Source: Rhodococcus sp. OK519
GTDB taxonomy: Bacteria; Actinomycetota; Actinomycetes; Mycobacteriales; Mycobacteriaceae
Direction: 5' to 3'
Assembly (NCBI RefSeq): GCF_003051005.1
Contig: NZ_QAOW01000001.1
Location: 806,001-870,000 of the forward strand
DNA length: 64,000 bases
A model generated the notes under the pieces. It had not been told where the DNA came from. It did no database searches and was given only the letters and a program-made list of their open reading frames with translations. Of this stretch, positions 6,164 through 43,611 are shown piece after piece (the stretch's first letter is position 1; every line of letters starts with the position of its first letter). Made by a program: the position numbers and the translations under genes.

Positions 6164-6903
6164 GCGCCTCACCCTTGCCCCGCACCCCGGCCATCTACCG
6201 GACGGCGATCCGTCACGTGCGAACCGCGCCGCTGCGCAACGCCTTCTGCTACCGCAGCTACAGCTGGCTCGTCGACATCGACCACCTCCCGAGCCTGCCG
6301 CGGATCCTCGCCCCGCTCGCGGGATTCGCCTCCGCCGATCATCTCGGCGACCTGTCGTGGAGTCTGCGGCAGAACGTCGACGCGTTCCTCGCGGCACACG
6401 GGATCGACCTCGAGGGCGGAAAAGTGCTGATGCTCACCAACGCCCGCGTGTTCGGGTACGTGTTCAATCCGCTCAGCGTGTTCTGGTGCCACGACGCGGA
6501 CAACCGACCGGTGTGCGTGATCGCCGAGGTGCACAACACGTACGGGGAGCGGCACTGTTACCTGCTGCGACCCGACGATCGCGGGAACGCGCGGGCGGTC
6601 AAGGCGTTCTACGTCTCGCCGTTCAACGACGTCGACGGTGAGTACCGCATGAGATTGCCCACCCCGGGGGAGGCGCTACACGTCGGAATCTCGCTCGAGC
6701 GCGCGGGTCAACCGCCGTTCGTCGCCACGGTCGTGGGTGAGCGCCGTGACGCGACACCGCGCGAGGTGCTGCGAGCGGCGCTCGCGGTCCCGATCGCACC
6801 ACTGCGGGTGGCCGCGCAGATCCGCTGGCAGGGAATTCGACTGTGGGCCAGAGGCCTACCCGTCCGGCAGCGACCGGCGCATCGACGACAGGAGGCAGTG
6901 TGA
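6160..6903 (+). CDS. DUF1365 family protein (Rv0448c-like)
   Basis: 247 residues. Its ATG overlaps the previous stop (ATGA). TAIRHVRTAPLRNAFCYRSY at the N-terminus and ARVFGYVFNPLSVFWCHD are hallmark blocks of DUF1365, as is VIAEVHNTYGERHCYLL. The family always travels with FAD oxidoreductase and cyclopropane-synthase genes, so a role in modifying unsaturated acyl chains is likely, but its reaction is unproven. No signal peptide or clear membrane segment. Translation is coupled to both neighbours. Confidence 0.88.
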   Translation: MSASPLPRTPAIYRTAIRHVRTAPLRNAFCYRSYSWLVDIDHLPSLPRILAPLAGFASADHLGDLSWSLRQNVDAFLAAHGIDLEGGKVLMLTNARVFGYVFNPLSVFWCHDADNRPVCVIAEVHNTYGERHCYLLRPDDRGNARAVKAFYVSPFNDVDGEYRMRLPTPGEALHVGISLERAGQPPFVATVVGERRDATPREVLRAALAVPIAPLRVAAQIRWQGIRLWARGLPVRQRPAHRRQEAV

Positions 6904-8177
6904 TGACCGCGACCGTGATCCCGACCGGGCGGCCCGTCGATCGGTGCGCGTGGGGAGACCTGCACCGCGCACCGTCCGGGGTGCGTGCCCGCGTCGCCGG
7001 ACGCGTGGCCGACGAACTGTTCCGGCGCGCGGTCTCGCGCCTGCCGGTTCGAGTGCACTTCCCGGACGGAACGGTGCTCGGCGGCCCGTCGGCGGCCGAT
7101 CCGCCGGTGATGGTCCTGCACCGACCCGCCGACTTCGCGGCCCGGGTCGGGGAGAGCGGCCTCATCGGGTTCGGTGAGTCCTATATGGCCGGAGACTGGT
7201 CGGCGCCCGACCTCACGGCGGTCCTCGAGGTCTTCGCGGCCCGCGCCGCGACGCTGATTCCGCGACCGCTGCAACGGATGCGCGGCATGGTGATCCCGAA
7301 GCCTCCGGGCAGCGAAGAGGGCACCACCCGCAATACCCGGTCGAACGTCTCTCGCCACTACGACCTGTCCAACGATCTGTTCGGCGGGTTCCTCGACGAG
7401 ACGCTCACATACTCGAGTGCGCTGTTCGCCGACGACGATTCCGCTCCTGTCTGGGACGATCTCGCCGCCGCGCAGCACCGCAAGATCGATCGCCTCCTCG
7501 ACGGCGCGCGGGTGCGGGAGGGCAGTCGGGTCCTCGAGATCGGGACCGGGTGGGGCGAGCTCGCCATCCGGGCTGCCGCACGTGGCGCAACGGTCCGCTC
7601 GATCACCCTGTCGACCGAGCAGCAGGATCTGGCCTGCAAGCGGATCGCGGAGGCCGGGTACGCCGACCGCGTGCAGGTGGACCTGCTCGACTACCGGCAG
7701 GTGGACGGACAGTACGACGCGGTGCTGTCGGTGGAGATGATCGAGGCGGTGGGACACCAGTTCTGGGGCACCTACTTCCGGACCCTCGACCGGGTGCTGG
7801 CCCCGGGCGGCCGCATCGCGATCCAGGCGATCACGATGCCGCACGATCGGATGCTCGCCACCCGCAACACCTACACGTGGGTGCACAAGTACATCTTCCC
7901 CGGCGGTTTTCTGCCGTCGGTGCGGGCGATCGAGGAGATCACCGAGCGGCAGACGAGTCTGTCGGTGCGGCAACGACTGTCGATGGGCGACCACTACGCG
8001 CGCACGCTGCGGCTGTGGGACGAACGGTTCGCCGCGCACGCCGACGAGATCGCCGCGCTCGGCTTCGACGACGTCTTCCGGCGACTGTGGCACTTCTATC
8101 TCTGCTATTCGGAGGCCGGATTTCGCTCCGGCTACCTCGACGTCCAGCAAATCGTCCTCGACCGGAGGGATACGTGA
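6903..8177 (+). CDS. cyclopropane-fatty-acyl-phospholipid synthase-type methyltransferase 1 (UfaA1-like)
   Basis: 424 residues, close to the length of mycobacterial UfaA1. The start ATG overlaps the previous stop (TGATG). The SAM-binding motif is VLEIGTGWGEL near residue 210, with Thr where most members have Cys (GCGWG). SRHYDLSNDLF and SVEMIEAVGHQFW are the conserved lipid-binding and catalytic blocks, and TYTWVHKYIFPGG is family-typical. It transfers a methyl group from SAM to the double bond of a phospholipid-bound acyl chain. By gene order it corresponds to the Rv0447c position. Overlaps the next gene by 1 nt. Confidence 0.93.
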   Translation: MTATVIPTGRPVDRCAWGDLHRAPSGVRARVAGRVADELFRRAVSRLPVRVHFPDGTVLGGPSAADPPVMVLHRPADFAARVGESGLIGFGESYMAGDWSAPDLTAVLEVFAARAATLIPRPLQRMRGMVIPKPPGSEEGTTRNTRSNVSRHYDLSNDLFGGFLDETLTYSSALFADDDSAPVWDDLAAAQHRKIDRLLDGARVREGSRVLEIGTGWGELAIRAAARGATVRSITLSTEQQDLACKRIAEAGYADRVQVDLLDYRQVDGQYDAVLSVEMIEAVGHQFWGTYFRTLDRVLAPGGRIAIQAITMPHDRMLATRNTYTWVHKYIFPGGFLPSVRAIEEITERQTSLSVRQRLSMGDHYARTLRLWDERFAAHADEIAALGFDDVFRRLWHFYLCYSEAGFRSGYLDVQQIVLDRRDT

Positions 8178-9472
8178 TGACCACGTCCGTGACCAGCGCG
8201 CACACCGGCATCGCCCACGACATCGCCGCGGTCCTCGAACCACTCGTGGGCGGGGATCTCCCGGTGCGGCTGACGGTGTGGGACGGCAGCGCGGCCGGTC
8301 CCGAGGACGCCCCACCCGTCGTTCTCTACAGCCCGAACGCGTTGCGGCGCATGCTGTGGCATCCCGGCGAACTCGGTGCGGCGCAGGCGTACGTCACCGG
8401 CGACCTGGACGTGCCCGGTGACCTCGACGACGCGCTGACCCACGTGTGGGAGACCGCGCGGTCCCGCGGACTGCACGGGATCCGTCCGACTCCGGCCCTG
8501 TTGGCCCGCGCGGCACGTCTCGCCCGGTCGGTCGGTGCCTTCGGGGCACCGCCCCCACCACCCGCGTCGCAGGCCCGGGTCCGCGGACGCCTGCATTCGA
8601 AGGTCCGGGACCGTGCCGCGATCAGCCACCACTACGACCTGTCGAACGAGTTCTACGCGCTGATCCTCGACCCGCACATGGCGTACTCGTGCGCGTACTG
8701 GACGTCGGACGACCCCGGATACACCCTCGGTGACGCGCAGCGCGACAAGCTGGATCTGGTGTGCCGCAAGCTCGGTCTGGACCGGCGACCGGGTCGGCGT
8801 CTGCTGGACGTCGGCTGCGGGTGGGGATCGCTGAGCCTGTACGCCGCCGCCGAGTACGACGCCAGCGTCGTCGGCGTGACACTGTCGCAGGAACAGAAGA
8901 ACTACGTCGACGCCCGGATCGCGGAACGCGGTCTCGGCGGCCGGGTCGAGATCCGGGTGCAGGACTACCGGGAGATCCCCGACGGCCCGTTCGATGCCGT
9001 CGCGTCGCTGGAGATGGGTGAGCACGTGGGCCGGCGCAACTACCCGGTGTATGCGCGGGCGTTGCGCGACAACGTCGTCCCCGGCGGACGGGTCCTGGTG
9101 CAGCAGATGTCGCGCACCGGTCGGCACCCCGGGGGCGGCCCGTTCATCGAATCCTTCATCGCGCCCGACATGTTCATGCGTCCGGTGGGGGAGACCGTCG
9201 GGCTGATCGAGGACGCGGGACTCGAGATCCGGGACGTGCATGCGCTGCGCGAACACTACGTCCGCACTGTGGCTGTGTGGCACCGCACGTTCGAGTCGCG
9301 CTGGGACGACGCGGTCGCGATGGTGGGTGAGGAGGCGGCCCGGGTGTGGCGGCTGTATCTCGTCGGCGGCGGCATGGCGTTCCGTGACGGGCGCATGGGT
9401 GTCGATCAGATCCTCGCGGTCCGGCCCGGGGGAGACGACGTGCCCGAGCGGACCGAGTGGACGGCGCGATGA
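8177..9472 (+). CDS. cyclopropane-fatty-acyl-phospholipid synthase-type methyltransferase 2
   Basis: 431 residues, a divergent second copy next to the first. ISHHYDLSNEFY, LLDVGCGWGSLSL (canonical GCGWG, near residue 210) and SLEMGEHVG match the family. The C-terminal half differs from copy 1: MSRTGRHPGGGPFIESFIAPD replaces the usual YIFPGG block. The two are therefore unlikely to be simple duplicates and may act on different lipids or as partners. The N-terminal part (NALRRMLWHPGELGAAQAYV) is the lipid-facing helical region. ATG at 8177 overlaps the upstream stop. Confidence 0.92.
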   Translation: MTTSVTSAHTGIAHDIAAVLEPLVGGDLPVRLTVWDGSAAGPEDAPPVVLYSPNALRRMLWHPGELGAAQAYVTGDLDVPGDLDDALTHVWETARSRGLHGIRPTPALLARAARLARSVGAFGAPPPPPASQARVRGRLHSKVRDRAAISHHYDLSNEFYALILDPHMAYSCAYWTSDDPGYTLGDAQRDKLDLVCRKLGLDRRPGRRLLDVGCGWGSLSLYAAAEYDASVVGVTLSQEQKNYVDARIAERGLGGRVEIRVQDYREIPDGPFDAVASLEMGEHVGRRNYPVYARALRDNVVPGGRVLVQQMSRTGRHPGGGPFIESFIAPDMFMRPVGETVGLIEDAGLEIRDVHALREHYVRTVAVWHRTFESRWDDAVAMVGEEAARVWRLYLVGGGMAFRDGRMGVDQILAVRPGGDDVPERTEWTAR

Positions 9473-10260
9473 ACGGCTTCGACTGGGGCGGTTTCGCGCT
9501 CGTCACCATCACCAGCGTGGTCGCCGCGGCGATCCTCATGGTCGTCACGGCGGCGTTCGGGTTCGCGCGTGGTCGACACAACGTCGTCGACGTGTCGTGG
9601 GGCGCCGGCTTCGTCGTCATCGCGCTCGTCGCGGCCGCGTTCGGTGACGGTGACCCGTGGCGGCGCTGGCTGCTCGCCGCGCTGGTCGCGGTGTGGGGCC
9701 TGCGCCTGGCGTCGCACATGGCGCGGCGCACCAGCGGACACGGCGAGGACCCTCGCTACGAGAAACTGCTCGACGACGCGGGCGGCAACCGGACGTGGAC
9801 GGCGATCCGCAAGATCTACCTCACGCAGGGGCTCGCCCTCTGGTTCGTCTCACTGCCGGTGCAGGTCGCGGCCGTCACGCACGGCGGGGTAGGAGTGTTC
9901 ACGATCCTCGGTGTCGCAGTGTGGCTGGTGGGTGTCGTGTTCGAATCCGTCGGCGATGCACAGATGTCGGCGTTCAAGGCGGAGCCGTCGAATCGCGGCA
10001 CGATCATGGACCGCGGATTGTGGGGCTGGACGCGGCATCCCAACTACTTCGGCGACGCGTGCGTGTGGTGGGGCATCTTCCTGATAGCCGCACAGTCGTG
10101 GCCGGGCGTGCTCACGATCCTCTCGCCCCTCGCGATGACGTACTTCCTCGTCTACGCCACCGGTGCCCGCCTGCTGGAACAGCACATGGCGCGGCGCCCG
10201 GGCTACCGCGAATACCAGGAGCGCACCAGCTACTTCGTGCCGCTGCCGCCGCGCCGCTGA
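9469..10260 (+). CDS. DUF1295 integral membrane protein (Rv0446c-like)
   Basis: 263 residues with about six hydrophobic segments. DUF1295 belongs to the steroid 5-alpha-reductase / isoprenylcysteine methyltransferase fold, shown by RGLWGWTRHPNYFGDACVWW and the C-terminal RRPGYREYQERTSYFVPLPP. These families use NADPH or SAM at the membrane. As the last gene of the overlapped lipid operon (ATGA overlap at 9469-9472) it may reduce or otherwise finish the modified acyl chain; this is inference. A role as the reductase competes with the FAD protein at the head of the operon. Confidence 0.88.
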   Translation: MNGFDWGGFALVTITSVVAAAILMVVTAAFGFARGRHNVVDVSWGAGFVVIALVAAAFGDGDPWRRWLLAALVAVWGLRLASHMARRTSGHGEDPRYEKLLDDAGGNRTWTAIRKIYLTQGLALWFVSLPVQVAAVTHGGVGVFTILGVAVWLVGVVFESVGDAQMSAFKAEPSNRGTIMDRGLWGWTRHPNYFGDACVWWGIFLIAAQSWPGVLTILSPLAMTYFLVYATGARLLEQHMARRPGYREYQERTSYFVPLPPRR

Positions 10261-10317
10261 TTCCGTGATCCGGCCGCGTCTGCCACAGTTGTTCCCGGTC
10301 GGCAGACAGGAGGGGCG

Positions 10318-10680
10318 ATGACGGAGACGCGGACGCTGGCGGTCGTCGCTGCCGGCGGCGCGATCGGTGCGAGCACGCGGTACCTGCTGGCGCAGCAGTT
10401 CCCAGGAATCTGGACGGTGCTGATGATCAACATCGTCGGATCGCTGCTGCTCGGCCTTCTCGCGGCGGTGCTCGGACCCGACCGGTTGTGGCGACTGTTC
10501 CTCGGCGTCGGCGTACTCGGCGGATTCACGACCTTCTCGACTTTCGCCGTCGACGTCGTGGAGAACCCGGGATCGGCGGTCGTCTACATCCTCGCGACGC
10601 TGCTGCCGGCGTTGCTGGCGGCCCGCCTCGGGATGGGAATCGGCGAGGCGTGGCACAGTCGGCGCGAGACGGCGTCGTGA
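10318..10680 (+). CDS. crcB: fluoride channel subunit CrcB/FluC (copy 1)
   Basis: 120 residues, four transmembrane helices. GGAIGASTRYLL, INIVGSLLLGLL (pore Asn) and GGFTTFSTFAVD (the phenylalanine-box and Na-site region) are all present. It exports fluoride. ATG 10318 follows an AGGAGGGG site. It is paired with a second, distinct copy by a GTGA overlap, the arrangement expected for a heterodimer in which each subunit has one fixed membrane orientation. I looked for a fluoride riboswitch in the 57 nt upstream and saw none. Confidence 0.95.
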   Translation: MTETRTLAVVAAGGAIGASTRYLLAQQFPGIWTVLMINIVGSLLLGLLAAVLGPDRLWRLFLGVGVLGGFTTFSTFAVDVVENPGSAVVYILATLLPALLAARLGMGIGEAWHSRRETAS

Positions 10681-11021
10681 CGGTTCTGTGGGTCGCGCTC
10701 GGCGGCGGCGTCGGCGCGGGGGCGCGCTATCTCGCCGGACGGCACCTGTCGTCGTACGCCAGTTTCCCGGTGCCGACATTCGTCGTGAACGTCGTCGGCT
10801 GTCTGATCCTCGGCCTGCTCGCCGGTGCGACGCTGCCGCCCGCGGTGTTCGCGCTGCTGGGTACCGGCTTCTGCGGCGGACTGACCACCTACTCGACGTT
10901 CGCCACCGAGTCGGTCGGCCTCACCCGCGTCGGCCGGTCCGTCACGTCCGTCCTCTATGTCGCGGCCAGTCTCGCCGTGGGTATCGGATTCGCGTGGCTG
11001 GGGTTTCGGATCACCGCTTGA
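10677..11021 (+). CDS. crcB: fluoride channel subunit CrcB/FluC (copy 2)
   Basis: 114 residues, four transmembrane helices. GGGVGAGARYLAG, VNVVGCLILGLL and GGLTTYSTFATES match the family; Phe-to-Tyr in the TTFSTF block separates it from copy 1. The GTG start at 10677 overlaps the stop of copy 1, so the two are translationally coupled and probably made 1:1 for a dual-topology pair. Confidence 0.94.
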   Translation: MTVLWVALGGGVGAGARYLAGRHLSSYASFPVPTFVVNVVGCLILGLLAGATLPPAVFALLGTGFCGGLTTYSTFATESVGLTRVGRSVTSVLYVAASLAVGIGFAWLGFRITA

Positions 11022-11089
11022 ACGCGCCGGTAGCTTCCCGCCCTGGCACGATGGTTCATGAGTTTCCAGCATGAGAGTCGGAGGGGTCG

Positions 11090-12727
11090 ATGGTGCACGA
11101 ACGAGCGGGACAGGTGGCGTTGCCGGAGGATCTGGAGGATCTGGCGCACCTGGTGTCCGCGTACTACACGCGCACCCCCGATCCGTCCGATCCGTTGCAG
11201 CAGGTGGTGTTCGGTACGTCCGGACATCGCGGCTCGAGCCTCGACTCCGCATTCAACGAGGCGCACATCCTCGCGACGACGCAGGCGATCGTCGAGTACC
11301 GCGCGGCGCAGGGCATCACCGGACCGCTGTTCCTCGGCCGCGACACCCACGCATTGTCGGAGCCCGCGTGGGCAACGGCACTCGAGGTGCTGGTGGCCAA
11401 CGATGTTGCGGTGGTGATCGATTCACGCGACCGATTCACGCCGACGCCGGCGGTGAGCCACGCGATCCTGCGGCACAATGCATCCGGCTCGGCCGCGCGC
11501 GCCGACGGAATCGTCGTCACCCCGTCGCACAACCCGCCGCGTGACGGCGGCTTCAAGTACAACCCGCCGCACGGTGGGCCCGCGGACAGCGATGCCACCA
11601 CCGTGATCGCCGACCGTGCCAACGACTTGCTCCGCACGGGGCTGTCCGAGATCGCCCGGGTACCGCTGGCGCGGGCACTCGCGTCGGCCGGGCGGTACGA
11701 CTACCTGGCCCAGTATGTCGACGACCTGCCGAGCGTCGTCGACCTCGACGCGATCCGGGCGTCCGGATTGCGGATCGGTGCAGACCCACTCGGTGGCGCG
11801 TCCGTCGACTACTGGGGAGCCATCGCCGAACGGCACCGCCTCGACCTCACCGTCGTCAACCCGCTCGTCGACGCCACGTGGCGGTTCATGACGCTCGACG
11901 GCGACGGCCGGATCCGCATGGACTGCTCGTCGCCGCACGCGATGGCCTCGCTCATCGCCGCCCGCGACCGATTCGATCTCGCGACCGGCAACGACGCCGA
12001 CGCCGACCGGCACGGCATCGTCACCCCCGATGGCGGCCTGATGAATCCCAACCACTACCTCGCGGTCGCGATCGACTACCTCTACACGTACCGCGCCGGG
12101 TGGTCGCCGACCACCAAGATCGGCAAGACCCTCGTCAGTTCGTCCATGATCGACCGCGTCGCCGGTGGGCTGGGGCGTCCCGTCGTCGAGGTGCCGGTCG
12201 GTTTCAAGTGGTTCGTGCCGGGACTGCTCGACGGCTCGCTCGGCTTCGGCGGCGAGGAGAGCGCCGGCGCTTCGTTCCTGCGCCACGACGGCAGCGTGTG
12301 GACCACCGACAAAGACGGAATCCTGCTGGCCCTGTTGGCCGCCGAGATCACGGCCGTCACCGGTCGGAGTCCGTCGGCCCGGTACCGCGAACTCACCCGG
12401 CAGTTCGGCGACCCCGCGTACGCCCGGATCGACGCCCCCGCGACGCGGGAGCAGAAGGCGGTGCTGTCGAAGCTCTCTCCCGAACAGGTCACCGCGACCG
12501 AGTTGGCTGGCGAGGCCGTCACCGCGACGCTCACCGCCGCGCCCGGCAACGGCGCGGCCATCGGCGGGCTCAAGGTCACCACCGAGAACGCGTGGTTCGC
12601 GGCCCGCCCGTCGGGCACCGAGGACGTTTACAAGATCTACGCCGAATCCTTCCGTGGCCCCGAACATCTCGCGCAGGTACAAGCGGCCGCGCAGGATGTT
12701 GTTTCCCGGGCACTGGGACTGGGCTGA
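11090..12727 (+). CDS. pgm: phosphoglucomutase (alpha-D-glucose-specific)
   Basis: 545 residues, full length. It interconverts glucose 1-phosphate and glucose 6-phosphate for glycogen, trehalose and cell-wall sugar supply. The catalytic serine is Ser146 in [13 protein letters not shown], the Mg-binding loop is [10 protein letters not shown], the sugar-specificity loop is [10 protein letters not shown] and the phosphate loop [13 protein letters not shown] lies near the C-terminus. [10 protein letters not shown] near residue 41 is typical of the bacterial Pgm branch. ATG 11090 has a strong GGAGGGG site. Confidence 0.96.
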
Positions 12728-17415: not shown

Positions 17416-17994
17416 TCAGCCGTCGTGTCGGCCGTACCCCTTGCCCTGACGATCCAGCGCGTCCGGTCCGATCCCGAGGTATTGCCGGCGCAGCCGGTCC
17501 CACAGTTCGAGCTGCGAGAAATCGAGCTCGTCGCGGATCTGTTGCGTCTTCGTCAGGAACGGGTTCGGCAGCATGGCGGTCATCATCTGTTCGTCGCGGC
17601 CGTTGAACAACCGGACGCCCCACGAGTGCGGAGTGCCGTCGGCGCCGAGGCTCCGGTACAGCTCGGCACGTGAGCATCGGCGGATCCGGCCCAACTCCGG
17701 CCCACTGTCGTTGTGCTCGCCGATGCACAGGTGAAAGTGCCAGCGGCCGAAGTCGATCGTGGCGTAGCCGTCGAACATCGAGATCCGCTTCGGCGCATTG
17801 GGCGCGGCGACCTCCCACGCCGCACCCTCCATGAGGATGCCGAACCAGATGTCGTCCCAGTACTCGTCGAACAGTAGATGGATCAGCTGCAGCAGTGAGT
17901 TCTCGTCCGCCGGGATGGGCCAACGCTGTTCGCGTCCGCCGCTTTCGGTGACGACGATCGACGGCTCGACCTCTTCGGGTTGTGCGGTGGTCAT
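17416..17994 (-). CDS. unrecognised 192-residue protein with HxHxCxxxH motif
   Basis: The last gene of the corrinoid-transport operon; its ATG 17994 overlaps the stop of the ATPase-reductase gene. It is soluble, with no signal peptide. The most striking block is DFGRWHFHLCIGEH: His86, His88, Cys90 and His94 could bind a metal. Acidic, Trp-rich segments (FDEYWDDIWFGILMEGAAW) and FLTKTQQIRDELDFSQLELW follow a compact single domain. I do not recognise a named family with certainty. Position and motif suggest a metal- or corrinoid-handling accessory protein, which is inference. Confidence 0.8.
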   Translation of the reverse strand: MTTAQPEEVEPSIVVTESGGREQRWPIPADENSLLQLIHLLFDEYWDDIWFGILMEGAAWEVAAPNAPKRISMFDGYATIDFGRWHFHLCIGEHNDSGPELGRIRRCSRAELYRSLGADGTPHSWGVRLFNGRDEQMMTAMLPNPFLTKTQQIRDELDFSQLELWDRLRRQYLGIGPDALDRQGKGYGRHDG

Positions 17995-19727
17995 GCCGAC
18001 TCCTCCTTCTCCTCGGGTTCGTTCGGACGGGTGAGAACGCAGTCCCCGCAGTAGCCGGAGACGGGTGTGCGATAGAACAGGCAGCAGCTTCGACGCCGAA
18101 AGCCGGTGCCTTCCCGGTCGACGGTGTCGACCAGTCTCGGATCGAGCAGGATCGTCTCGGCGAGTCCCGCAGCGGCTGTTCGGGTCTCGCCGTCGAGTAC
18201 CCGGGCGGCACCGATCAGCGCCGACGCCGCATTGCCCCACAGCAGCCGTTCCGACATCGGCTCGGCGGCGCGGATCGCGGCGATCATCGGTGCGAGGTGA
18301 CGGTCCACGACCGTCTCTCGCGCCAGGTCGACCAGATCGCCACCCTCCCAGCCGATCGGCTCGCGCACGTGCAGGTCGATCCGGCCGTCGACGTCGCGCC
18401 ACACCAGTCCGTCGATGTCCGGCAGGATGCGGCCCCGGACGATGCCGCCGAGGGTGAGCGACCACAGTCGGGCCGCATAGCCGAGGAACAGCGTGGACGC
18501 CGCGACCCGGTATTCGGTGGACCCGATGCGGGAACCGACGTGCCCGACGACGTCGGCGAGTGCGGCCGCGTCGGTGTACAGATCGCGCACGGGCCGCCAG
18601 TCGCCCGACCCGGAATCGCCGGTGGTGGCGGTGAAGTAGGGTCCGAGGCCGGCCAGATCCGCCAAGATCGTCGTGACGGTGTCCGAGGACGTCAGCGTCA
18701 GTTCGGAGAGCGGGAGCGCGCGCAGGGCACGGGGGAGCGCATCCAGTCCGTCGACAGGAAGGCCCTGCCCCGCATGATGGACGACGACACCCTCGCGCGC
18801 ATCGACCTGCAGGTCTGCCGGGCCGTCGTCGCCGATCACCACGACGCCCTCGCGGCCCAGCAGCCTGCCCAACGTCGATGCCGTGGGTTCGGGTGCGCGA
18901 ACCCTGGCTCGGAGTGGGGACTCGTGCGTGGAACGCAGCGCGAACACCCCGGAACCGACATCGAATCTCAGTGACTGCGAATCGAACACGGCGCCGATCC
19001 TGCCGTCCAGTGCGAGTTGCTCGGGTGTGCCGGTGGACAGCCGGCCCGAACGGTCGAGCAGCCACACATGGTCCGCGACGCGCAGGGCCAGTTCGAGGTC
19101 GTGCGTCGACATCACCACCGCGAGTCCGTGTTCACGCGCTGCCCGCCGCATGAGTTCGACCAGAGCGACCCGGGACGGCACATCCAGGAAGGCCGTCGGC
19201 TCGTCGAGAATCAGCAGTGTCGGTTCCTGGGCGAGGGCGCGAGCGGTGAGGACCCGCTGGCGTTCGCCGTCGGACAGTTCGCTCGCCGGTCGATCGGCGA
19301 GGTGCGCTGCCCCGACCGCCTCGAGCGCCCACTCGACGACGATGTGATCGCGGGCACTCATCCGGCCGCCCAGGCCGAGGTGTGGTGTGCGGCCGAGGCC
19401 GGCCAGTTCGCGGGCCGACAGCATGCCTGGGTCGACGCGGTCGGTGAGCACGACGGCGATCGCGCGGGCGACGTCGTCGGCGGCCATGGTGCGCAGATCC
19501 TTGCCGGACAACGTGATCGACCCGGTGAGAGCGGGTTGCAGACCGCACAGCGTGCGCAGCAGCGTGGATTTGCCACTGCCGTTGGGGCCGAGCAGCACGG
19601 TCAGCTCGCCGCGTCGTGCGACCGCGTCGATCTTGGACGCGACGGTCCGCGTCGTGGTCGGGCGGAGCGCGCGGCGGGCGTGATAGCCGACGGCGACGTC
19701 GGCGAGGTCCAGGGCGATGTCGTTCAC
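17991..19727 (-). CDS. ABC importer ATPase fused to FhuF-type [2Fe-2S] reductase
   Basis: A 578-residue single reading frame. Residues 1-265 are a FecE/BtuD-type ATPase: Walker A GPNGSGKS (47-54), Q-loop region before residue 100, signature LSDGE (151-155), Walker B LLILDEP (171-177) and switch His209. Residues 266-340 are a linker with a small alpha/beta feel. Residues 345-563 are a FhuF-like domain ending in CCLFYRTPVSGYCGDC, an exact CCx10Cx2C [2Fe-2S] motif (Cys548, 549, 560, 563). No ATG, GTG or TTG start lies between the last linker block and the FhuF domain, so a hidden separate gene is unlikely. The GTG start overlaps the permease stop. The FhuF family reduces ferric siderophores; here, behind a cobalamin riboswitch, it may reduce imported corrinoid. 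Confidence 0.9.
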   Translation of the reverse strand: MNDIALDLADVAVGYHARRALRPTTTRTVASKIDAVARRGELTVLLGPNGSGKSTLLRTLCGLQPALTGSITLSGKDLRTMAADDVARAIAVVLTDRVDPGMLSARELAGLGRTPHLGLGGRMSARDHIVVEWALEAVGAAHLADRPASELSDGERQRVLTARALAQEPTLLILDEPTAFLDVPSRVALVELMRRAAREHGLAVVMSTHDLELALRVADHVWLLDRSGRLSTGTPEQLALDGRIGAVFDSQSLRFDVGSGVFALRSTHESPLRARVRAPEPTASTLGRLLGREGVVVIGDDGPADLQVDAREGVVVHHAGQGLPVDGLDALPRALRALPLSELTLTSSDTVTTILADLAGLGPYFTATTGDSGSGDWRPVRDLYTDAAALADVVGHVGSRIGSTEYRVAASTLFLGYAARLWSLTLGGIVRGRILPDIDGLVWRDVDGRIDLHVREPIGWEGGDLVDLARETVVDRHLAPMIAAIRAAEPMSERLLWGNAASALIGAARVLDGETRTAAAGLAETILLDPRLVDTVDREGTGFRRRSCCLFYRTPVSGYCGDCVLTRPNEPEEKEESA

Positions 19728-20848
19728 AGCGCACCCCCGACGCCGCGTCTGCTGCGGACGAGGATCGTCACCACGATCGGTGCGCCGATCAGGGCGGTGA
19801 CGGCGTTGAGTGGGAGGACGGAGTCGCTGCCCGGCACCTGGCTCACGATGCCGCACGCGAGTGCCACGGCCGACCCCATCAGGATCACGGTCGGCATCAG
19901 GGATCGATGGTCGGACGTGCCGACCGCGAGGCGGGACAGATGGGGGACGGCGAGCCCCAGGAAGCCGATCGGGCCGCAGAACGCGGTGGTCACTCCCGCC
20001 AGCAGCGATGCGGTGAGCAGCGTGACGAGGCGGGCGCGGCGCACGTCGATGCCCATCGTGCGGGCGTAACCCTCGCCGAGGAGCAGCGCGTTGAGCGGCC
20101 GAACCGTGGCCAGCGCGACACCGATGCACGCGACGACGATCGGTGTCATCAGCGCGAGATCGCCCCACGTGGTCGCGGCGAAGCTGCCCAGCCCCCACAG
20201 CAGGAACTGTTGTGCGCGTTGGGGATCGGTGTACACCAGCAGCACGCTCACGATCGCAGTGGTGGCCGAGCCGACCATCACGCCGATCAGGAGCAGGGTC
20301 ACCGCGTTCTTCACCCAGTGCGAGAGCGCCAGCACCAGCAGCAGAACGACGGCGGCCCCGGTGGCGGCCACGGCCACCACCCCCGCACGTCCCGCCCCCG
20401 CGAAACCCGACGTGAACGAGGCGGCGCCGGCGCCTCCCGCGGCCACGACGACCAGCGCGACACCGAGGCTCGCTCCCGAGCTGGCGCCGAGCACGAACGG
20501 GTCGGCGAGCGCGTTGCGGAGCAGCGTCTGCATCTGCAGGCCGGCGACTCCGAGCGCGGCCCCGACGAGGACGGCGGTGACGGCGCGGGGCAGACGTAGT
20601 TCGTGGACCACTACCTGCCAGCGCGGATCGGAGGGCGCGGCGCCGACGAGAACCCGGACGGTGTCGGCGAGAGGGACACGCACCGGGCCGAGCGCCAGCG
20701 CCAGCACGAACAGCACGACCGTCGACGCGGCCAGCAGTGCCAGCGTCACCGCGGTTCGCCGCGAGAACGCCCGCGGTGTCGTCGGCAGCCCCCTCCCGTC
20801 CGCCGGCCCGGTGAGCGGGGCCGGCGGACGGGACAGGAGCGTGGTCAT
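19724..20848 (-). CDS. FecCD/BtuC-type ABC permease
   Basis: 374 residues with about ten membrane helices. LRLPRAVTAVLVGAALGVAG and QTLLRNALADPFVLGASSGA are the signature BtuC/FecCD blocks, and GPIGFLGLAVPHLSR is the ATPase-coupling loop. One permease gene implies a homodimer. The 30-residue cytoplasmic N-terminus is longer than usual. ATGA and GTGA overlaps tie it to the binding protein before and the ATPase after. Confidence 0.93.
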   Translation of the reverse strand: MTTLLSRPPAPLTGPADGRGLPTTPRAFSRRTAVTLALLAASTVVLFVLALALGPVRVPLADTVRVLVGAAPSDPRWQVVVHELRLPRAVTAVLVGAALGVAGLQMQTLLRNALADPFVLGASSGASLGVALVVVAAGGAGAASFTSGFAGAGRAGVVAVAATGAAVVLLLVLALSHWVKNAVTLLLIGVMVGSATTAIVSVLLVYTDPQRAQQFLLWGLGSFAATTWGDLALMTPIVVACIGVALATVRPLNALLLGEGYARTMGIDVRRARLVTLLTASLLAGVTTAFCGPIGFLGLAVPHLSRLAVGTSDHRSLMPTVILMGSAVALACGIVSQVPGSDSVLPLNAVTALIGAPIVVTILVRSRRGVGGAL

Positions 20849-22047
20849 GCCCGCGGCACCTGGCGGTAGAACACGAACTCGTGGTCCGGCATCAGATCCG
20901 GGTGCAGGATCGCGACGACGTCAGCGAGTACCAGATCGGGGCGGGTGACGCCGCGCTCGTAGAAGTCGTTGCCGCCGGTGGGGCCGATCGCCTTCGTCGC
21001 CGACCAGATCGCGCCGTCCTTCACCGCCGCGAGCTGACCGTAGCGGGGATCCTCGGCGACCGCGTCGGCCGTCGTCTCCCACGAACTGGTCACGAACCAC
21101 GTGGGCGCCGTGCCTGCCTGCGCGTACACGGACTCGAAGTTCAGCTGCAGGCTGCCGGTGGCGGGGTCGTTCTGCCACGGGTAGCTGCCGCCCGCGTCGC
21201 TCACGAGACCGCCGATGTAGCTGCCGCCGGCCGGCATGTACCACGTGCCCTGGTACATCGTGCCGGGCAGGACGGCGCTCGGTTGCGCGCCCTGCGCCTT
21301 GGCCGCCACTTCGTCGTAGTCGCTGCGGATCCGCGAGTACGCCTCTGCTGCCTGCGCTTCGGTGCCGGTGAGGGCAGCCATCGCCTTGATCCACTCGGCG
21401 CGCCCGAGGGCGGTCGACTCGAGGTACTCGGCGTTGGCTACGACGGGAATGCCGGCCGACCGCAGCTTCGCGTACGAAGGATCGTCGGTGCCGCCGGTCA
21501 TCAGGACGTCCGGATCGTCCGCGACGACCTTCTCGGTGTTCACGGTCTGGCCGGGCGCGTACTCGACGACCTTGCCGGCGTCGATGCGCTCACGCACCGT
21601 GGGGTCGGAGACGAATCCGGCGTTTGCGACACCCGTGAGGACGTCGACCTGACCGAGTTCTGTCATGAGCGGAAGGTGCGTGGTCGACGCCGAATACAGG
21701 CTGGTGATCGGCGTCGTGATCTTCGGTGCCGCGGCGAGGTCGCCGGTCAGCGCCGGATCCGGCGCGCCGCACTTGACCAGTACGTACGACTCCGGGGCGC
21801 CACCCGGGTACGGCTGGTTCACCGTGAGCACCTGGTAGCTGTCGTGGTATTCGAGCGTGAAATTCTTCGCGTCCGACACCGACGACTTGTCGGGGAAGTA
21901 GTCGGTGCTCGCGTCGAAGTCGGTGATGCAGGCGTCGCCACCCTGCGCGGCACCGCTCGTCTGCGACTCGGCAGACGAACAGGCAGTGAGCGCGAGGGTC
22001 GCCACGGCAAGGACGGAAAGCGCAGCGGTCGTGGACCGTTGGGACAT
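20845..22047 (-). CDS. substrate-binding lipoprotein of the corrinoid/siderophore-type importer
   Basis: 400 residues with a signal peptide and lipobox LALTACSS (lipidated Cys23). The mature part has the two-lobed cluster A-II (BtuF/FhuD) architecture: KITTPITSLYSASTTHLPLMTEL, then a helical backbone and a C-terminal lobe ending GGNDFYERGVTRPDLVLADVV. It delivers the ligand to the downstream permease. Cobalamin or another corrinoid is inferred from the riboswitch upstream and from bluB and cobW-type genes nearby; a ferric siderophore or haem is the alternative, since the fold does not tell them apart. Confidence 0.88.
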   Translation of the reverse strand: MSQRSTTAALSVLAVATLALTACSSAESQTSGAAQGGDACITDFDASTDYFPDKSSVSDAKNFTLEYHDSYQVLTVNQPYPGGAPESYVLVKCGAPDPALTGDLAAAPKITTPITSLYSASTTHLPLMTELGQVDVLTGVANAGFVSDPTVRERIDAGKVVEYAPGQTVNTEKVVADDPDVLMTGGTDDPSYAKLRSAGIPVVANAEYLESTALGRAEWIKAMAALTGTEAQAAEAYSRIRSDYDEVAAKAQGAQPSAVLPGTMYQGTWYMPAGGSYIGGLVSDAGGSYPWQNDPATGSLQLNFESVYAQAGTAPTWFVTSSWETTADAVAEDPRYGQLAAVKDGAIWSATKAIGPTGGNDFYERGVTRPDLVLADVVAILHPDLMPDHEFVFYRQVPRA

Positions 22048-22135
22048 GTGTTCTCCACAGGTGAGCGGGACGGTCGGCCGTCGGCTCGACTCGTTCTCGT
22101 GTGTGCCTGAACAGGCGCACGGGCGACCTGACGAA

Positions 22136-22154
22136 CGAGGCCAGCCTAACGAAA
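22136..22154 (-). promoter_or_regulatory. possible IdeR/DtxR iron box
   Basis: On the minus strand TTTCGTTAGGCTGGCCTCG matches the IdeR consensus TTAGGTTAGGCTAACCTAA at 13 of 19 positions, including the GTTAGGCT core. It lies about 90 nt before the binding-lipoprotein start, downstream of the riboswitch, so it could serve a second, iron-controlled promoter. The match is moderate. Confidence 0.4.
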
Positions 22155-22185
22155 GCCGACGGTGTTCCGGGACGGAATCGGGACG

Positions 22186-22272
22186 TCAGGCGTGGATGTG
22201 GAGAGAGTCGTCCGGCGCGATCGTGACACGACGCGCAACAGCGAATCTTGGGGACGATGCGGTGAACAGCAT
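22186..22272 (-). CDS. possible 28-residue leader peptide in the riboswitch leader
   Basis: ATG 22272 to TGA 22186, peptide MLFTASSPRFAVARRVTI and on to DDSLHIHA. A small hairpin (GGTGG/CCACC, 22273-22287 on the genome) sits directly before the ATG and contains the only candidate ribosome site (AGGTGG), as if it could be hidden. The frame lies between the riboswitch and the transporter. It may be chance; it is short, and its codon use is not decisive. Confidence 0.3.
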   Translation of the reverse strand: MLFTASSPRFAVARRVTIAPDDSLHIHA

Positions 22273-22320
22273 GGTGGACCGGCCACCTCTCTCGGGGAAA
22301 TCCGCCCCGAATAGGAGATT

Positions 22321-22480
22321 GCGATGACGGGAGTCTCCTGGCTCTCGGATCGGCACTTCCCTCCGCCTTCCGGCCTGTCGGCCGTGGCAAGTGAAGGGTC
22401 GCTCCCCGATTACAGTGGCGGGACCGCGCCGGTTTTGCACCGGCTTCCTCTTTCGTCATCACCTGACCGGGGCATTGTTG
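22321..22480 (-). promoter_or_regulatory. cobalamin (B12) riboswitch
   Basis: On the minus strand the conserved core is plain: GGAAGCCGGTGCAAAACCGG, then CGCGGTCCCGCCACTGTAA, then the B12 box AGCCAGGAGAC at about 22343-22333. The ends are closed by GATGACG (22460-22454) pairing with CGTCATC (22329-22323). It points toward the importer operon, whose first start is 273 nt downstream. Such elements usually turn expression off when adenosylcobalamin is bound. I could not identify a clear terminator in the platform, so translational control is as likely as transcriptional. Confidence 0.92.
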
Positions 22481-22517: not shown

Positions 22518-22709
22518 TCAGGATGCCGGAGGCGGCAATTCGCGTCCGTCGGCCACCCATGCCCGCATGCCGCCGTCGAGTTCGACGACATCGGTGTACC
22601 CCGACTGAGCCAGGTCAGCCGCGGCGGTGGCGCTCATGTTGCCCGACATGCAGTACACGGCGATCGTGGTGCTGTGATCGGACGGCAACGACGCGCCGCG
22701 CGCGGGCAC
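22518..22709 (-). pseudogene. N-terminally truncated rhodanese
   Basis: Only the second half of a rhodanese domain is present: AVYCMSGNMSATAAADLAQSG with the sulfur-carrying Cys, then TDVVELDGGMRAWVADGREL. The usual DVR...HIPGA first half (about 40 residues) is missing. In frame, codons run back only to a TAG 30 nt or so beyond GTG 22709, giving TDSAIPFDEV but no earlier start and no matching N-terminus in other frames. It is 63 residues if translated from GTG. Decay of the gene is the simplest reading. Confidence 0.65.
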
Positions 22710-22865
22710 CTCGTCGAACGGAATCGCGCTGTCGGTTCCGGCACTACGGTGGTTCTACGTAGATGGCCGGGGTCGGTGACCGGGACCACGCGCCCACGAC
22801 ATCTCGGAGCTGCGAGGCTTGTACGATTACTCGTCGGTGTTGTCGGTGGCGTGGAGGTCGGGGTG

Positions 22866-23936
22866 GTGAAGAAGCGGGATCCTCGGTCGATCCCTGTCGT
22901 CGTCGTGGCCGGATTCCTCGGATCGGGGAAGACGACGATGCTCAACCACCTTCTGCGCAACAACGGCGGTACCCGCATCGGGGTGATCGTCAACGACTTC
23001 GGCTCGGTCAACATCGACGCGATGATGGTTGCGGGACAGGTCGATTCGATGATGGCCCTCAGCAACGGATGCCTGTGCTGCGCCGTCGACGTCAGCGACA
23101 TGGACGAGATGCTGAACAAGCTCGCGCATCGCAAGTCGGAGATCGACGTCATCGTCGTCGAAGCCAGCGGGCTCGCGGAACCGCGCAACATGATTCGGCT
23201 CGTACTCGCCAGCGAGAACCCCTACATCACGTACGGCGGCCTGGTGATGCTCGTCGACGGCGCCGAATATCAGAGCAGCCGCCAGCGGCACCCCGAACTG
23301 GACCAGCATGTCGCGATCGCCGACCTCGTCGTGCTCAACAAGACCGATCGCATCGACGCCGATGCCCACGACCTCCTGCTCGCCGACGTGTGCCGCATCA
23401 ATCCGCGCGCCGCGGTGCTGTCCACTGTGCGGGGGCGCGTCGATCCCGGTCTGCTGTTCGATCGCACGCCCCGCCCGGTGTCTCGACCCGGACAGCAGTT
23501 GTCGTTCGACGACCTGCTCCTCGGCGCCGACGAGCCGTCCGACCAGTGTGGTGAGTGCGGTGGGCAGCACGATCAGCACATCCATGCGATGTACGACAGC
23601 GTCACGTTCACGTCCGACCTGCCGATGCACCCGCGCCGGCTGATCCGGTTCCTCGAGAAGCAGCCGCCCGGCGTCTACCGGATCAAGGGCTTCGTCTACT
23701 TCGGTGTGCCCGGCTATCAGCAGAAGTTCCTGTTGCAGGTGGTCGGTGACCACATCAGTTTCCACCCGGGACGCTGGGTGGCGGGGGAGCCCCGGCGTAC
23801 CGAACTGGTCGTGATCGGAACGGATCTCGACCCGGACGCGGTGGATGCGGTGCTCGACGCGTGCGTCGAACCCGAGGCCGACCACCTCGAGAGCGACACC
23901 ATGATGGGCGTGCACCGGTACACGGTCGACGCCTGA
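22866..23936 (+). CDS. CobW/COG0523 family metal-chaperone GTPase
   Basis: 356 residues. Walker A GFLGSGKTT (residues 16-24), the family metal motif GCLCC (Cys69, Cys71, Cys72), EASGLAEP and the guanine motif NKTD are present. A Cys/His-rich linker (CGECGGQHDQHIH) precedes the CobW C-terminal domain that ends near VVIGTDLDPD. The family delivers Zn, Co or Ni to target enzymes. It stands next to bluB and divergent from the riboswitch-controlled importer, so cobalt or corrinoid metabolism is plausible; zinc homeostasis is the alternative. GTG 22866 has a GGAGG site 8 nt upstream; GTG 22863 is also possible. Confidence 0.92.
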   Translation: MKKRDPRSIPVVVVAGFLGSGKTTMLNHLLRNNGGTRIGVIVNDFGSVNIDAMMVAGQVDSMMALSNGCLCCAVDVSDMDEMLNKLAHRKSEIDVIVVEASGLAEPRNMIRLVLASENPYITYGGLVMLVDGAEYQSSRQRHPELDQHVAIADLVVLNKTDRIDADAHDLLLADVCRINPRAAVLSTVRGRVDPGLLFDRTPRPVSRPGQQLSFDDLLLGADEPSDQCGECGGQHDQHIHAMYDSVTFTSDLPMHPRRLIRFLEKQPPGVYRIKGFVYFGVPGYQQKFLLQVVGDHISFHPGRWVAGEPRRTELVVIGTDLDPDAVDAVLDACVEPEADHLESDTMMGVHRYTVDA

Positions 23937-23981: not shown

Positions 23982-24611
23982 GTGACCGAATCCCTCGTTT
24001 CCGTGTACGAAGCCATCCGCCGACGCCGTGACGTCCGCGCCGAGTTCAGTGGCGAACTGATCCCCGACGAGACGTTGCAGCGTGTGCTCGGTGCGGCGCA
24101 CGCGGCCCCGAGCGTCGGCAACACCCAGCCGTGGGACTTCATCGTCGTCCGCAACCAGGACACCCTCGACACCTTCGCCGATCACGTCGCCGACCGCCGC
24201 CGCGCGTTCGCCGACTCGCTACCGGCAGACCGTCGAAAGACGTTCGACCCCATCAAGATCGAGGGCATTCGCGAAAGCGGTACGGGCATCGTCGTCACGT
24301 ACGACCCGGCGCGCGGCGGCCAGAACATCCTCGGTCGGCACACCATCGACGACACCGGACTGTTCTCGGCGGTGCTCGCCATCCAGAACCTCTGGCTGGC
24401 AGCGGCCGCCGAGAACATCGGCGTGGGCTGGGTGTCGTTCTACGACGAGGAGTACCTCACCGACATGCTCGACATCCCTGGGCCGGTCCGTCCCATCGCG
24501 TGGCTGTGTGTCGGCAAGGTCGAGCAGTTCCAGGAAGTTCCCGACCTGGAACGCTTCGGTTGGCGGACGCGTCGGGACCTGTCCGACGCGATCCACTGGG
24601 AACGCTTCTAG
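23982..24611 (+). CDS. bluB: 5,6-dimethylbenzimidazole synthase
   Basis: 209 residues of the nitroreductase fold. IRRRRDVRAEF, AHAAPSVGNTQPWDFI, GIRESGTGIVVTYDP and HTIDDTGLFSAVLAIQNLWL match the BluB branch, which converts reduced FMN with oxygen to 5,6-dimethylbenzimidazole, the lower ligand of B12. It is full length. The gene follows the CobW-type gene by 45 nt and supports a B12 role for this neighbourhood, including lower-ligand remodelling of imported corrinoids. Confidence 0.93.
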   Translation: MTESLVSVYEAIRRRRDVRAEFSGELIPDETLQRVLGAAHAAPSVGNTQPWDFIVVRNQDTLDTFADHVADRRRAFADSLPADRRKTFDPIKIEGIRESGTGIVVTYDPARGGQNILGRHTIDDTGLFSAVLAIQNLWLAAAAENIGVGWVSFYDEEYLTDMLDIPGPVRPIAWLCVGKVEQFQEVPDLERFGWRTRRDLSDAIHWERF

Positions 24612-42262: not shown

Positions 42263-43264
42263 TTAGCCGTTGTGCGGGTCGACCCCGAAGGCCTCGGCGA
42301 GGTCGTCGAGGATCTTGTGCGCGCCCTGGATGCTGACCGGCGTCATCCACATCGCGTCGTCGACGTTCACGATGCGTCCCTTCAGCGTTCCCCACAGCGG
42401 GTTCTGCAGGAAGGCCTCCGCGGCCTTCATCGACTTGCCGTCGGGATCCTCGTACGTCGCAACGAAGATGACGTCGGAGTCGGCCTCGTTGATCCGCTCC
42501 GGGCTGATCGAGTTCATGATGCTCCCGGCGTCAGCGGGATCGGGGCCCTGGCTGTCCGGTCGGGCCAGTCCGGCGTCGGCGAGGACGATGCCGCTGAACG
42601 ACGTGGTCCGGTAGAGGCGGGCGGTCGGCTCACCGGCGAAGCGGACGACGGAGACCTTCGGGGTGTTCGCCTTGGCGTTGATCTCGTCGCCGATCGCCTT
42701 GGCGCGTGCCTCGTAGTCGCCGATCTTCTGCTCGGCGAGATCCTCCTTGGCCAGTGCTTTCGCGACCAGGCGGATGTTGTCCTTCCATGTCGGCCCGGTC
42801 GACTGCGAGAACACGGTGGGTGCGAGTGCGGACAGCGCCTCGTAGTTCTTTCCGTCGCGCACTTCGGCGGAGAGGATCAGATCGGGTTCCAACTGGGCGA
42901 TCTTCTCGACGCTCACGGACTGGACCTTGCCGACCGAGACCGCGTCGGCCGCGTACTGATCGCGGGCGTCTCCCAGATAGTCGGGCAGGCCCTGCTCGCG
43001 GTAGTCGACGAAGCCGACGAGTGGCGACTCGAGCAGGAGGACGGCGTCCGCATAGCTGTTGTCGAGCGTGACGATGCGCTGCGGCTGGGCATCGATGTTC
43101 GCCACACCACGGAAGTGCTGGACGGTTCGCGGGAACCCTGCCGACGCGGTGGCCGTTGTATCGGCGGTGCTCTCGGTGGACGAGCAGCCGGTGAGGGCGA
43201 GGCTCACGGCTGCTCCCACCGCAGCCAGGGACGAGAGCGTGCGGCGTCGAGTCTTTGTATGCAC
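42263..43264 (-). CDS. iron-siderophore-type binding lipoprotein (FecB/Rv3044-like, copy 2)
   Basis: 333 residues from GTG 43264 (GGAG site 9 nt upstream), lipobox SLALTGCSS. PQRIVTLDNSYADAVLLLESPLVG and EPDLILSAEVRDGKNYEAL are typical of iron-chelate binding proteins. Its position next to ctaD matches fecB (Rv3044) in M. tuberculosis, which I recall binding carboxymycobactin-type siderophores. An IdeR-like box covers its promoter. An upstream in-frame extension (to 43378) has no signal-peptide logic and was not used. Confidence 0.9.
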   Translation of the reverse strand: MHTKTRRRTLSSLAAVGAAVSLALTGCSSTESTADTTATASAGFPRTVQHFRGVANIDAQPQRIVTLDNSYADAVLLLESPLVGFVDYREQGLPDYLGDARDQYAADAVSVGKVQSVSVEKIAQLEPDLILSAEVRDGKNYEALSALAPTVFSQSTGPTWKDNIRLVAKALAKEDLAEQKIGDYEARAKAIGDEINAKANTPKVSVVRFAGEPTARLYRTTSFSGIVLADAGLARPDSQGPDPADAGSIMNSISPERINEADSDVIFVATYEDPDGKSMKAAEAFLQNPLWGTLKGRIVNVDDAMWMTPVSIQGAHKILDDLAEAFGVDPHNG

Positions 43265-43289
43265 GGGCAGAACTCCAAGGATGGGATGA

Positions 43290-43308
43290 TTAGGCAAGGG
43301 AAACCTTA
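43290..43308 (-). promoter_or_regulatory. IdeR/DtxR-like iron box
   Basis: TTAGGCAAGGGAAACCTTA on the plus strand matches the IdeR consensus at 14 of 19 positions and is palindromic in its outer arms. It lies 26 nt upstream of the binding-lipoprotein start and overlaps the AT-rich stretch (TACTATTAAGG on the minus strand) that looks like its -10. Confidence 0.65.
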
Positions 43309-43611
43309 ATAGTATGGAGGTGGCATCGGTCCCGGCAGTCGCCGGTGCCCGCCGCCCGGCATCGGGGCGCACCGACACGCCGCGGCACGGTGACCGAGTA
43401 GTCCGATCGGGGACTAAAGGCCTGTTCGCGGCCTTATCGGTGGAAGGTCGTAGTGCCCGAGTACGACAGGGAGTAGGACCCGGTCCTCGGGTCCCGAAAG
43501 CACCGTCTACGATTCGATGAGCGCAAGCCAGCGATCGCCTCTTCCGCCAGTCCGGGGTAGGCGCTCAGAGCGCGGCCTGCGGAGCGACCAAGGGCACAAT
43601 CAGGAGGATCA
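43309..43611 (+). promoter_or_regulatory. ctaD upstream region
   Basis: No gene seen in these 303 nt. It holds an inverted repeat AAGGCC/GGCCTT (43417-43422, 43430-43435, spacer 7), a -10-like TACGAT (43508-43513) and a strong AGGAGG ribosome site just before GTG 43612. The repeat may be a regulator site for the oxidase. Confidence 0.45.

Follow-up and report, generated by a model that had tools for sequence, protein, structure and literature searches.

We analyzed a 64,000-nucleotide stretch of the genome of Rhodococcus sp. OK519 (contig NZ_QAOW01000001.1, positions 806,001 to 870,000; here, the window), focusing on a minus-strand operon that encodes an importer of the ATP-binding cassette (ABC) type whose ATPase is fused to an FhuF-type domain. 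The operon begins with a cobalamin riboswitch aptamer (RF00174; 22311-22502; cmscan 93.2 bits, E 7.1e-22, gathering score 31.5), followed in order by genes for a BtuF-like substrate-binding lipoprotein (20845-22047; Pfam Peripla_BP_2 89.1 bits, lipobox LTAC in the translation), a BtuC-like/FecCD permease (19724-20848; Pfam FecCD 250.8 bits), a BtuD-FhuF fusion of 578 residues with a GTG start (17991-19727; ABC_tran 101.9 bits plus FhuF/FhuF_C), and a DUF7676 protein (PF24724; 17416-17994; Pfam 228.7 bits, cut-off 27), all on the minus strand. The original prediction for this region, made from the sequence alone, had named the riboswitch, the lipoprotein, and the permease, and all three are borne out by these matches; it had omitted the DUF7676 gene, which lies within the span it described and which proved central to our analysis. 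A FecCD permease, a Peripla_BP_2 binding protein, and an ABC ATPase encoded in one operon constitute a BtuFCD-type importer. A sequence comparison of BtuF with the PDB gave nothing at E <= 0.01. Because each start overlaps the preceding stop by four bases (ATGA, GTGA, and ATGA, read in the sequence), the four genes are very likely translated jointly.

The fusion protein consists of an ATPase domain (residues 1 to 265; 18933-19727, minus strand) and an FhuF-type domain (residues about 345 to 578; 17994-18695, minus strand; FhuF plus FhuF_C) with a CCx10CxxC motif. The motifs that had been claimed for it were all found: Walker A at residue 47, the signature LSDGE at 151, Walker B at 171, the switch histidine (STHD) at 207, and the four cluster-motif cysteines (Cys548, 549, 560, and 563). 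Neither a stop nor a frame break was found at the junction of ATPase and FhuF. The Pfam models FhuF (26.7 bits, cut-off 25.2) and FhuF_C (32.1 bits, cut-off 20.5) both matched above their cut-offs; the FhuF model spans just residues 464 to 519, and several relatives pass FhuF_C only. A profile of 33 relatives, in contrast, aligned with 162 columns of E. coli FhuF (hhalign probability 96.4, E 1.4e-9), and the E. coli FhuF structure 7qp5 was matched by profile with an E of 1.9e-10. The CCx10CxxC motif was present by pattern in 93 of 102 homologs, and the remaining nine have a longer loop. An AlphaFold2 model of the fusion had a mean pLDDT of 91.9 and a pTM of 0.78. Because ATPase matches filled the list returned by a fold search with the FhuF half, the fold of this half rests on the sequence profiles and on our reading of the helices and strands of the model.

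We searched for the fusion in a sample of 401 genomes of the family and a sample of 394 genomes of the class. Thirteen genomes of the family match almost the entire fusion. A fourteenth, G448, whose assembly has broken frames with a break inside the ATPase part, matches over residues 100 to 574. These 14 genomes are spread over four genera, and the riboswitch, BtuF, BtuC, and DUF7676 are present in unchanged order at all 14 loci; loss of the riboswitch from relatives that keep the fusion, an outcome that would have counted against the original prediction, was not seen. A sequencing error that joined two genes is ruled out by the recurrence of the fusion in 13 other genomes of the family, in 12 of which the frame is unbroken. 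In the class sample, 23 genomes match at E <= 1e-55, five of them (already in the family set) at full length and 18 over the ATPase part only. One of these 18, locus L199 (genome G915, from another family), may be a fifteenth fusion: a single open frame of 1214 codons encodes the ATPase match and, 210 codons past it, FhuF, and the riboswitch, btuF in pieces, btuC, and DUF7676 are present. L050 (G204) and L076 (G014) belong to a single genus in a different family of the order; at both, the FhuF frame opens with a shortened ATPase part (about 5998-7353 of L050 and about 4059-5435 of L076, both on the minus strand). Walker A is kept there, the signature and Walker B were not detected by pattern, and the fused ATPase part has probably lost its motor function. 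The fusion is therefore not limited to one family, as L199 indicates and, with a shortened ATPase part, L050 and L076.

Unfused counterparts also occur. In L183-L185, which come from three genomes in a different genus of the family, and in L213, a Rhodococcus plasmid, the five parts follow one another as in the window, but ATPase and FhuF are encoded separately; L195 has this unfused order with FhuF in broken pieces, and L198 has it without DUF7676. In a tree of 95 FhuF domains, the 13 fusions included and L183-L185 fall into one poorly resolved group, L199 is placed elsewhere, and L050 and L076 were not included. From these data, a single origin of the 13 treed fusions with L183-L185 is possible, and fusion, or loss of fusion, probably occurred more than once.

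When the order was searched with the C-terminal part of the protein, 128 of 298 genomes had FhuF relatives, and we examined the best 80 loci along with 20 weaker ones. No ATPase match lies in the open frame of FhuF in 72 of the best 80. With a covariance model trained on 19 riboswitches, the majority of them Rfam finds from these same loci, we detected cobalamin riboswitches no more than 4 kb from FhuF at 46 of the best 80 loci, compared to 0.49 expected from the riboswitch density across the 80 genomes, a count that is uncorrected for kinship. Among the weaker loci, the riboswitch was absent from all 17 distant FhuF controls, which come from one other family; the other three (including L132 and L133), which share the aligned region of the B12 branch, have one riboswitch each. 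The arrangements of the branch are varied: BtuF-BtuC-BtuD-FhuF (L043, L049, L057, L060, L064, L070, and L071), CbtB-CbtA-FhuF cobalt-transporter operons (nine loci), FhuF immediately preceding a riboswitch with CbtA (nine loci among the best 80 plus three further loci), FhuF convergent with CbtBA (five loci), and a riboswitch directly before FhuF (five loci). The Cbt names come from a Pfam scan of one member per arrangement. FhuF relatives lie 1.6 to 2.6 kb from a CobM match in three genomes (G061, G137, and G040). The CobM model matched all 57 FhuF genomes tested (49 above its cut-off), which makes the presence of CobM uninformative as a marker of salvage versus synthesis.

Two further riboswitch placements were observed among these loci. 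Short cobalamin riboswitches (122 to 136 nt) lie directly 5' of stand-alone fhuF at one conserved site in L053, L054, L062, and L063, and L045, L048, L058, L065, and L069 have the neighbors of that site in common with no riboswitch detected. Another cobalamin riboswitch, 2.3 to 2.7 kb past FhuF and before a large gene, points toward the operon from the opposite side in L034, L035, and L037-L039.

The DUF7676 protein has a predicted fold of the HutX/ChuX/HemS heme-chaperone type. The Pfam models of HutX/ChuX/HemS gave no match to it at E <= 0.01, with DUF7676 alone reported, and its profile matched nothing in the PDB at E <= 1. Among 149 genomes sampled from the phylum, DUF7676 was detected only in that of the window, which rules out a general actinobacterial protein. 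On plasmids of other phyla, it lies within riboswitch-controlled TonB-receptor/BtuFCD operons. The eight plasmid records with DUF7676 that were examined, out of 14, contain a riboswitch in seven cases, BtuFCD-type genes in six, and a TonB receptor in six. At two cyanobacterial loci (L219 and L220), DUF7676 is joined to what is probably a thioredoxin-like [2Fe-2S] (ferredoxin) domain, which scored 21 to 22 bits, below its cut-off of 24.8. The DUF7676 gene strengthens the reading of the operon as one concerned with corrinoids. As a separate observation, the plasmid locus L213 has a convergent riboswitch-controlled operon (6652-11760) with iron-type ABC genes, one protein of which combines a thioredoxin-like [2Fe-2S] domain with a weak match to CbiX, another tie between [2Fe-2S] proteins and a B12-controlled importer.

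On the far side of the riboswitch, in the opposite direction, lie genes for a CobW-family GTPase (22674-23936, plus strand, start uncertain; Pfam cobW 165.1 bits) and BluB, the 5,6-dimethylbenzimidazole synthase (23982-24611, plus strand; TIGR02476 212.2 bits, cut-off 150); the adjacency of bluB had been predicted correctly. Between the riboswitch and btuF is a possible leader open reading frame of 28 codons (22186-22272, minus strand), whose position is kept in the long-leader fusion loci. In all eight of these (the window and L171-L177), it has 28 to 31 codons and a Shine-Dalgarno-like stretch and lies 37 to 39 bases past the riboswitch; none was found in the nine short-leader loci scanned (L034-L039 and L183-L185). 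A riboswitch of Mycobacterium tuberculosis is reported to work via a comparable upstream open reading frame (PMC12713380). The genome of the window has six cobalamin riboswitch matches and one FhuF_C match. It also contains a second BtuFCD-like set (L208; C2:364500-378000), near which we detected neither a riboswitch nor an FhuF match.

Import of a corrinoid by the window operon is well supported, by gene context and the riboswitch. In Anabaena, a related operon with the ferredoxin-like gene alr4030 is reported to respond to cobalt/cobalamin, and a btuD mutant to take up less cobalamin (PMC10878165). We lean, if only slightly, toward a mechanism in which the operon imports the corrinoid, FhuF at the ATPase reduces it from Co(III) to Co(II), and DUF7676 takes it over. 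The riboswitch would presumably shut off the operon when B12 is plentiful. BtuF would bind the corrinoid outside the cell, and BtuC with the fused ATPase would carry it inward; the FhuF-type [2Fe-2S] domain, which would sit on the cytosolic side of the ATPase, would reduce the Co(III) corrinoid by one electron on entry, giving the Co(II) corrinoid and loosening or removing the upper ligand (hydroxo, cyano, or alkyl). DUF7676, predicted to be cytosolic, could then deliver the corrinoid to an adenosyltransferase or other users. In this scheme we infer the substrate, the cluster, the electron transfer, the direction of transfer, and the hand-off.

The Co(III)/Co(II) potential is positive or mildly negative, depending on the ligands. 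Set against it, the potential of -0.36 V reported for E. coli FhuF at pH 7.4 (PMC8068687) is low enough for Co(III)/Co(II) and marginal for Co(II)/Co(I), given as -450 mV (PMC4083273). A broader reading, which we would put slightly under an even chance, is that the operon is the B12 counterpart of a heme-import relay, in which an importer, a [2Fe-2S] donor, and a HutX-fold corrinoid chaperone (DUF7676) are variously fused (BtuD-FhuF here, DUF7676-ferredoxin in cyanobacteria). Actinobacteria would have such a relay, as would proteobacteria and cyanobacteria with parts of other kinds; FhuF would represent a wider M(III)-to-M(II) reductase family with a corrinoid-reducing branch, which here has entered the transport motor.

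Several observations weigh against corrinoid reduction during import. In five species of the window's genus (L178-L182), an FhuF open reading frame survives beside cobW and bluB, and no riboswitch, importer (btuFCD), or DUF7676 was detected at the locus. A cobalamin riboswitch within 4 kb is missing from 34 of the best 80 FhuF loci, of which contig ends truncate some; when ten of the riboswitch-less loci and L003 were searched with Rfam, no cobalamin riboswitch was found. Because these 34 loci lack the riboswitch and the five species keep FhuF alone, the importer is not the only setting of FhuF. Conversely, nine loci (L188, L190-L194, L196, L197, and L203) have a riboswitch and BtuF-BtuC-BtuD with no FhuF match, so import does not generally depend on reduction by FhuF. 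The occurrence of FhuF in CbtBA operons suggests an additional role, in the use of cobalt or in de novo synthesis. Furthermore, the importer proteins missed the NCBIfam cut-offs (BtuC 183.1 bits against 334, BtuD 109.1 against 281, and BtuF 20.4 against 234), and the best NCBIfam models for the ATPase were F420-0 and FecE, likewise below cut-off. A sequence comparison of BtuF with the PDB gave nothing at E <= 0.01.

The stand-alone FhuF of the five species forms a branch inside the fusion group of the tree and retains the cysteine motif. Their genomes have a second ATPase match elsewhere, about 49% identical, whose counterpart in the window's genome lies in the L208 set. In Prescottella equi DSM 20307 (L003, the same locus as L178), nucleotide similarity to the window ends inside the riboswitch and returns behind DUF7676, and between those points FhuF matches at the protein level. 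Pairwise ratios of nonsynonymous to synonymous substitution rates (dN/dS) among these FhuF genes are 0.30 to 0.43, with most pairs spanning possibly fused ancestors. Because the one well-supported stand-alone pair, L181/L182, gives a dN/dS of 0.31, the stand-alone FhuF seems to be under purifying selection.

The main rival explanation, which we judge unlikely, makes FhuF an electron donor for adenosylation that helps to reduce Co(II) to Co(I) for CobO/PduO, replacing the corrin reductase CobR, which has no assigned gene in mycobacteria. It is favored by FhuF relatives that accompany CbtBA and corrin-synthesis genes and not importers alone, and by the five species that retain FhuF at a locus without an importer; the cobR row is empty in mycobacterial tables within PMC8192938, and the reported potential of E. 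coli FhuF drops to -0.42 V at pH 8.2 (PMC8068687), compared to -450 mV for Co(II)/Co(I) (PMC4083273). Yet 19 of the 20 FhuF-less genomes tested, from 170 in the order sample, have CobM, so FhuF is not generally required for de novo synthesis, and an obligatory role there is ruled out. At pH 7.4, the FhuF potential is also too high for this step unless the adenosyltransferase shifts that of cobalt. A quite improbable alternative is an importer of cobalt chelates in which FhuF frees the metal by converting the chelate from inert Co(III) to the labile Co(II) form, much as it acts on ferric siderophores. B12 riboswitches govern cobalt uptake too, CbtBA cobalt transporters accompany FhuF relatives, and the match to CobM in every FhuF genome tested means that these genomes could use free cobalt. 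This alternative sits poorly with the predicted tetrapyrrole-chaperone fold of DUF7676, with the adjoining BluB and CobW genes, and with the resemblance of DUF7676-type operons to the Anabaena operon, for which cobalamin uptake is reported.

That the operon encodes an ordinary ferric-siderophore importer with its own FhuF reductase we consider highly unlikely, given the riboswitch at all 14 fusion loci and a permease whose best NCBIfam model is BtuC, though below cut-off; FhuF is a known ferric-siderophore reductase, permeases of this type are often annotated as "iron ABC transporter," and FecE is among the best ATPase models. Near the operon, no IdeR-like box turned up when as many as three mismatches to the consensus were allowed, which argues against iron control of the operon and against a siderophore importer. 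The only such box in the window, a weak match with three mismatches (43290-43308), lies at the start of a gene (42263-43378, minus strand) that looks like a second siderophore-type binding lipoprotein and contrasts with the riboswitch operon. The FhuF cluster might, lastly, be a sensor through which redox or iron state gates the ATPase, with no substrate of its own. Such a role would suit a domain physically joined to the ATPase, and C-terminal regulatory domains do occur on importer ATPases such as MetN; we give it very little probability, since no ATPase match shares the frame in 72 of the best 80 FhuF loci and the ATPase part of L050 and L076 has no signature motif.

Overall, the original proposal that FhuF acts on a corrinoid, not a siderophore, is the best current reading with a putative mechanism, and is partly supported by gene context: the riboswitch with every fusion, BtuFCD or CbtBA as neighbors, DUF7676 in common with cobalamin-import operons elsewhere, and no IdeR-like box. 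Its other part, reduction placed at the ATPase, is not essential to FhuF, because 72 of the best 80 loci have no ATPase match in the FhuF frame, L050 and L076 are signature-less, and five species have no importer at the locus. The function does not need fusion of FhuF to the ATPase.

Corrinoid reduction and hand-over after import are poorly known in bacteria, and a fused reductase-type domain and a predicted corrinoid chaperone in the same operon would provide named genes for direct assay. If corrinoid reduction by FhuF is true, part of the FhuF family shifts from iron to cobalt chemistry, and some actinobacterial proteins labeled "(2Fe-2S)-binding" or "ferric iron reductase" may be wrongly annotated. 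In the open PMC literature (subscription papers and RegPrecise lay outside the search), we recognized no description of a system combining FhuF with a B12 importer and found nothing on DUF1636 with cobalamin. One paper retrieved on FhuF together with cobalamin and riboswitches mentions FhuF only as a [2Fe-2S] protein little affected by cobalt. A Frankia paper that includes FhuF and CbtA treats FhuF as an iron reductase (PMC4531530), and a third, which describes MSMEG_4560-4558 as a putative BtuFCD, contains no mention of FhuF (PMC8088520).

Compared to E. coli FhuF (7qp5), the window domain has the same CCx10CxxC motif, the RRxCC...YR...CGDC signature, and the 162-column profile match; it differs in being fused to an ABC ATPase, in lying behind a B12 riboswitch where the E. 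coli gene is under Fur control, and in its conserved partners, which are BtuFC and DUF7676 here and CbtBA in other relatives. The E. coli B12 importer BtuCDF has a BtuD without a reductase domain, and the window proteins fall below the NCBIfam Btu cut-offs. Anabaena sp. PCC 7120 alr4027-btuB2-alr4030-btuFCD, as reported, likewise combines riboswitch-controlled cobalamin import with a ferredoxin-like gene, and its layout is shared with L219 and L220, which have the DUF7676-ferredoxin fusion; judging from these relatives, alr4030 itself would carry DUF7676. In that system the cluster domain is of the ferredoxin type, not FhuF, it is attached to DUF7676, not to the ATPase, and an outer-membrane receptor is present. 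The heme-trafficking proteins HutX/ChuX/HemS/PhuS differ in that DUF7676 does not match their Pfam models and has a B12 importer as its partner. CobR and PduS resemble our proposal in the chemistry of corrinoid reduction or decyanation and belong to other protein families. BtuM and MMACHC also carry out corrinoid reduction or decyanation and differ from FhuF in family. To our knowledge, none of these four is part of an ABC importer ATPase. The B12 ABC importer is a known kind of system; a reductase-type domain fused to the importer ATPase, within a possible corrinoid-handling relay, would be new.

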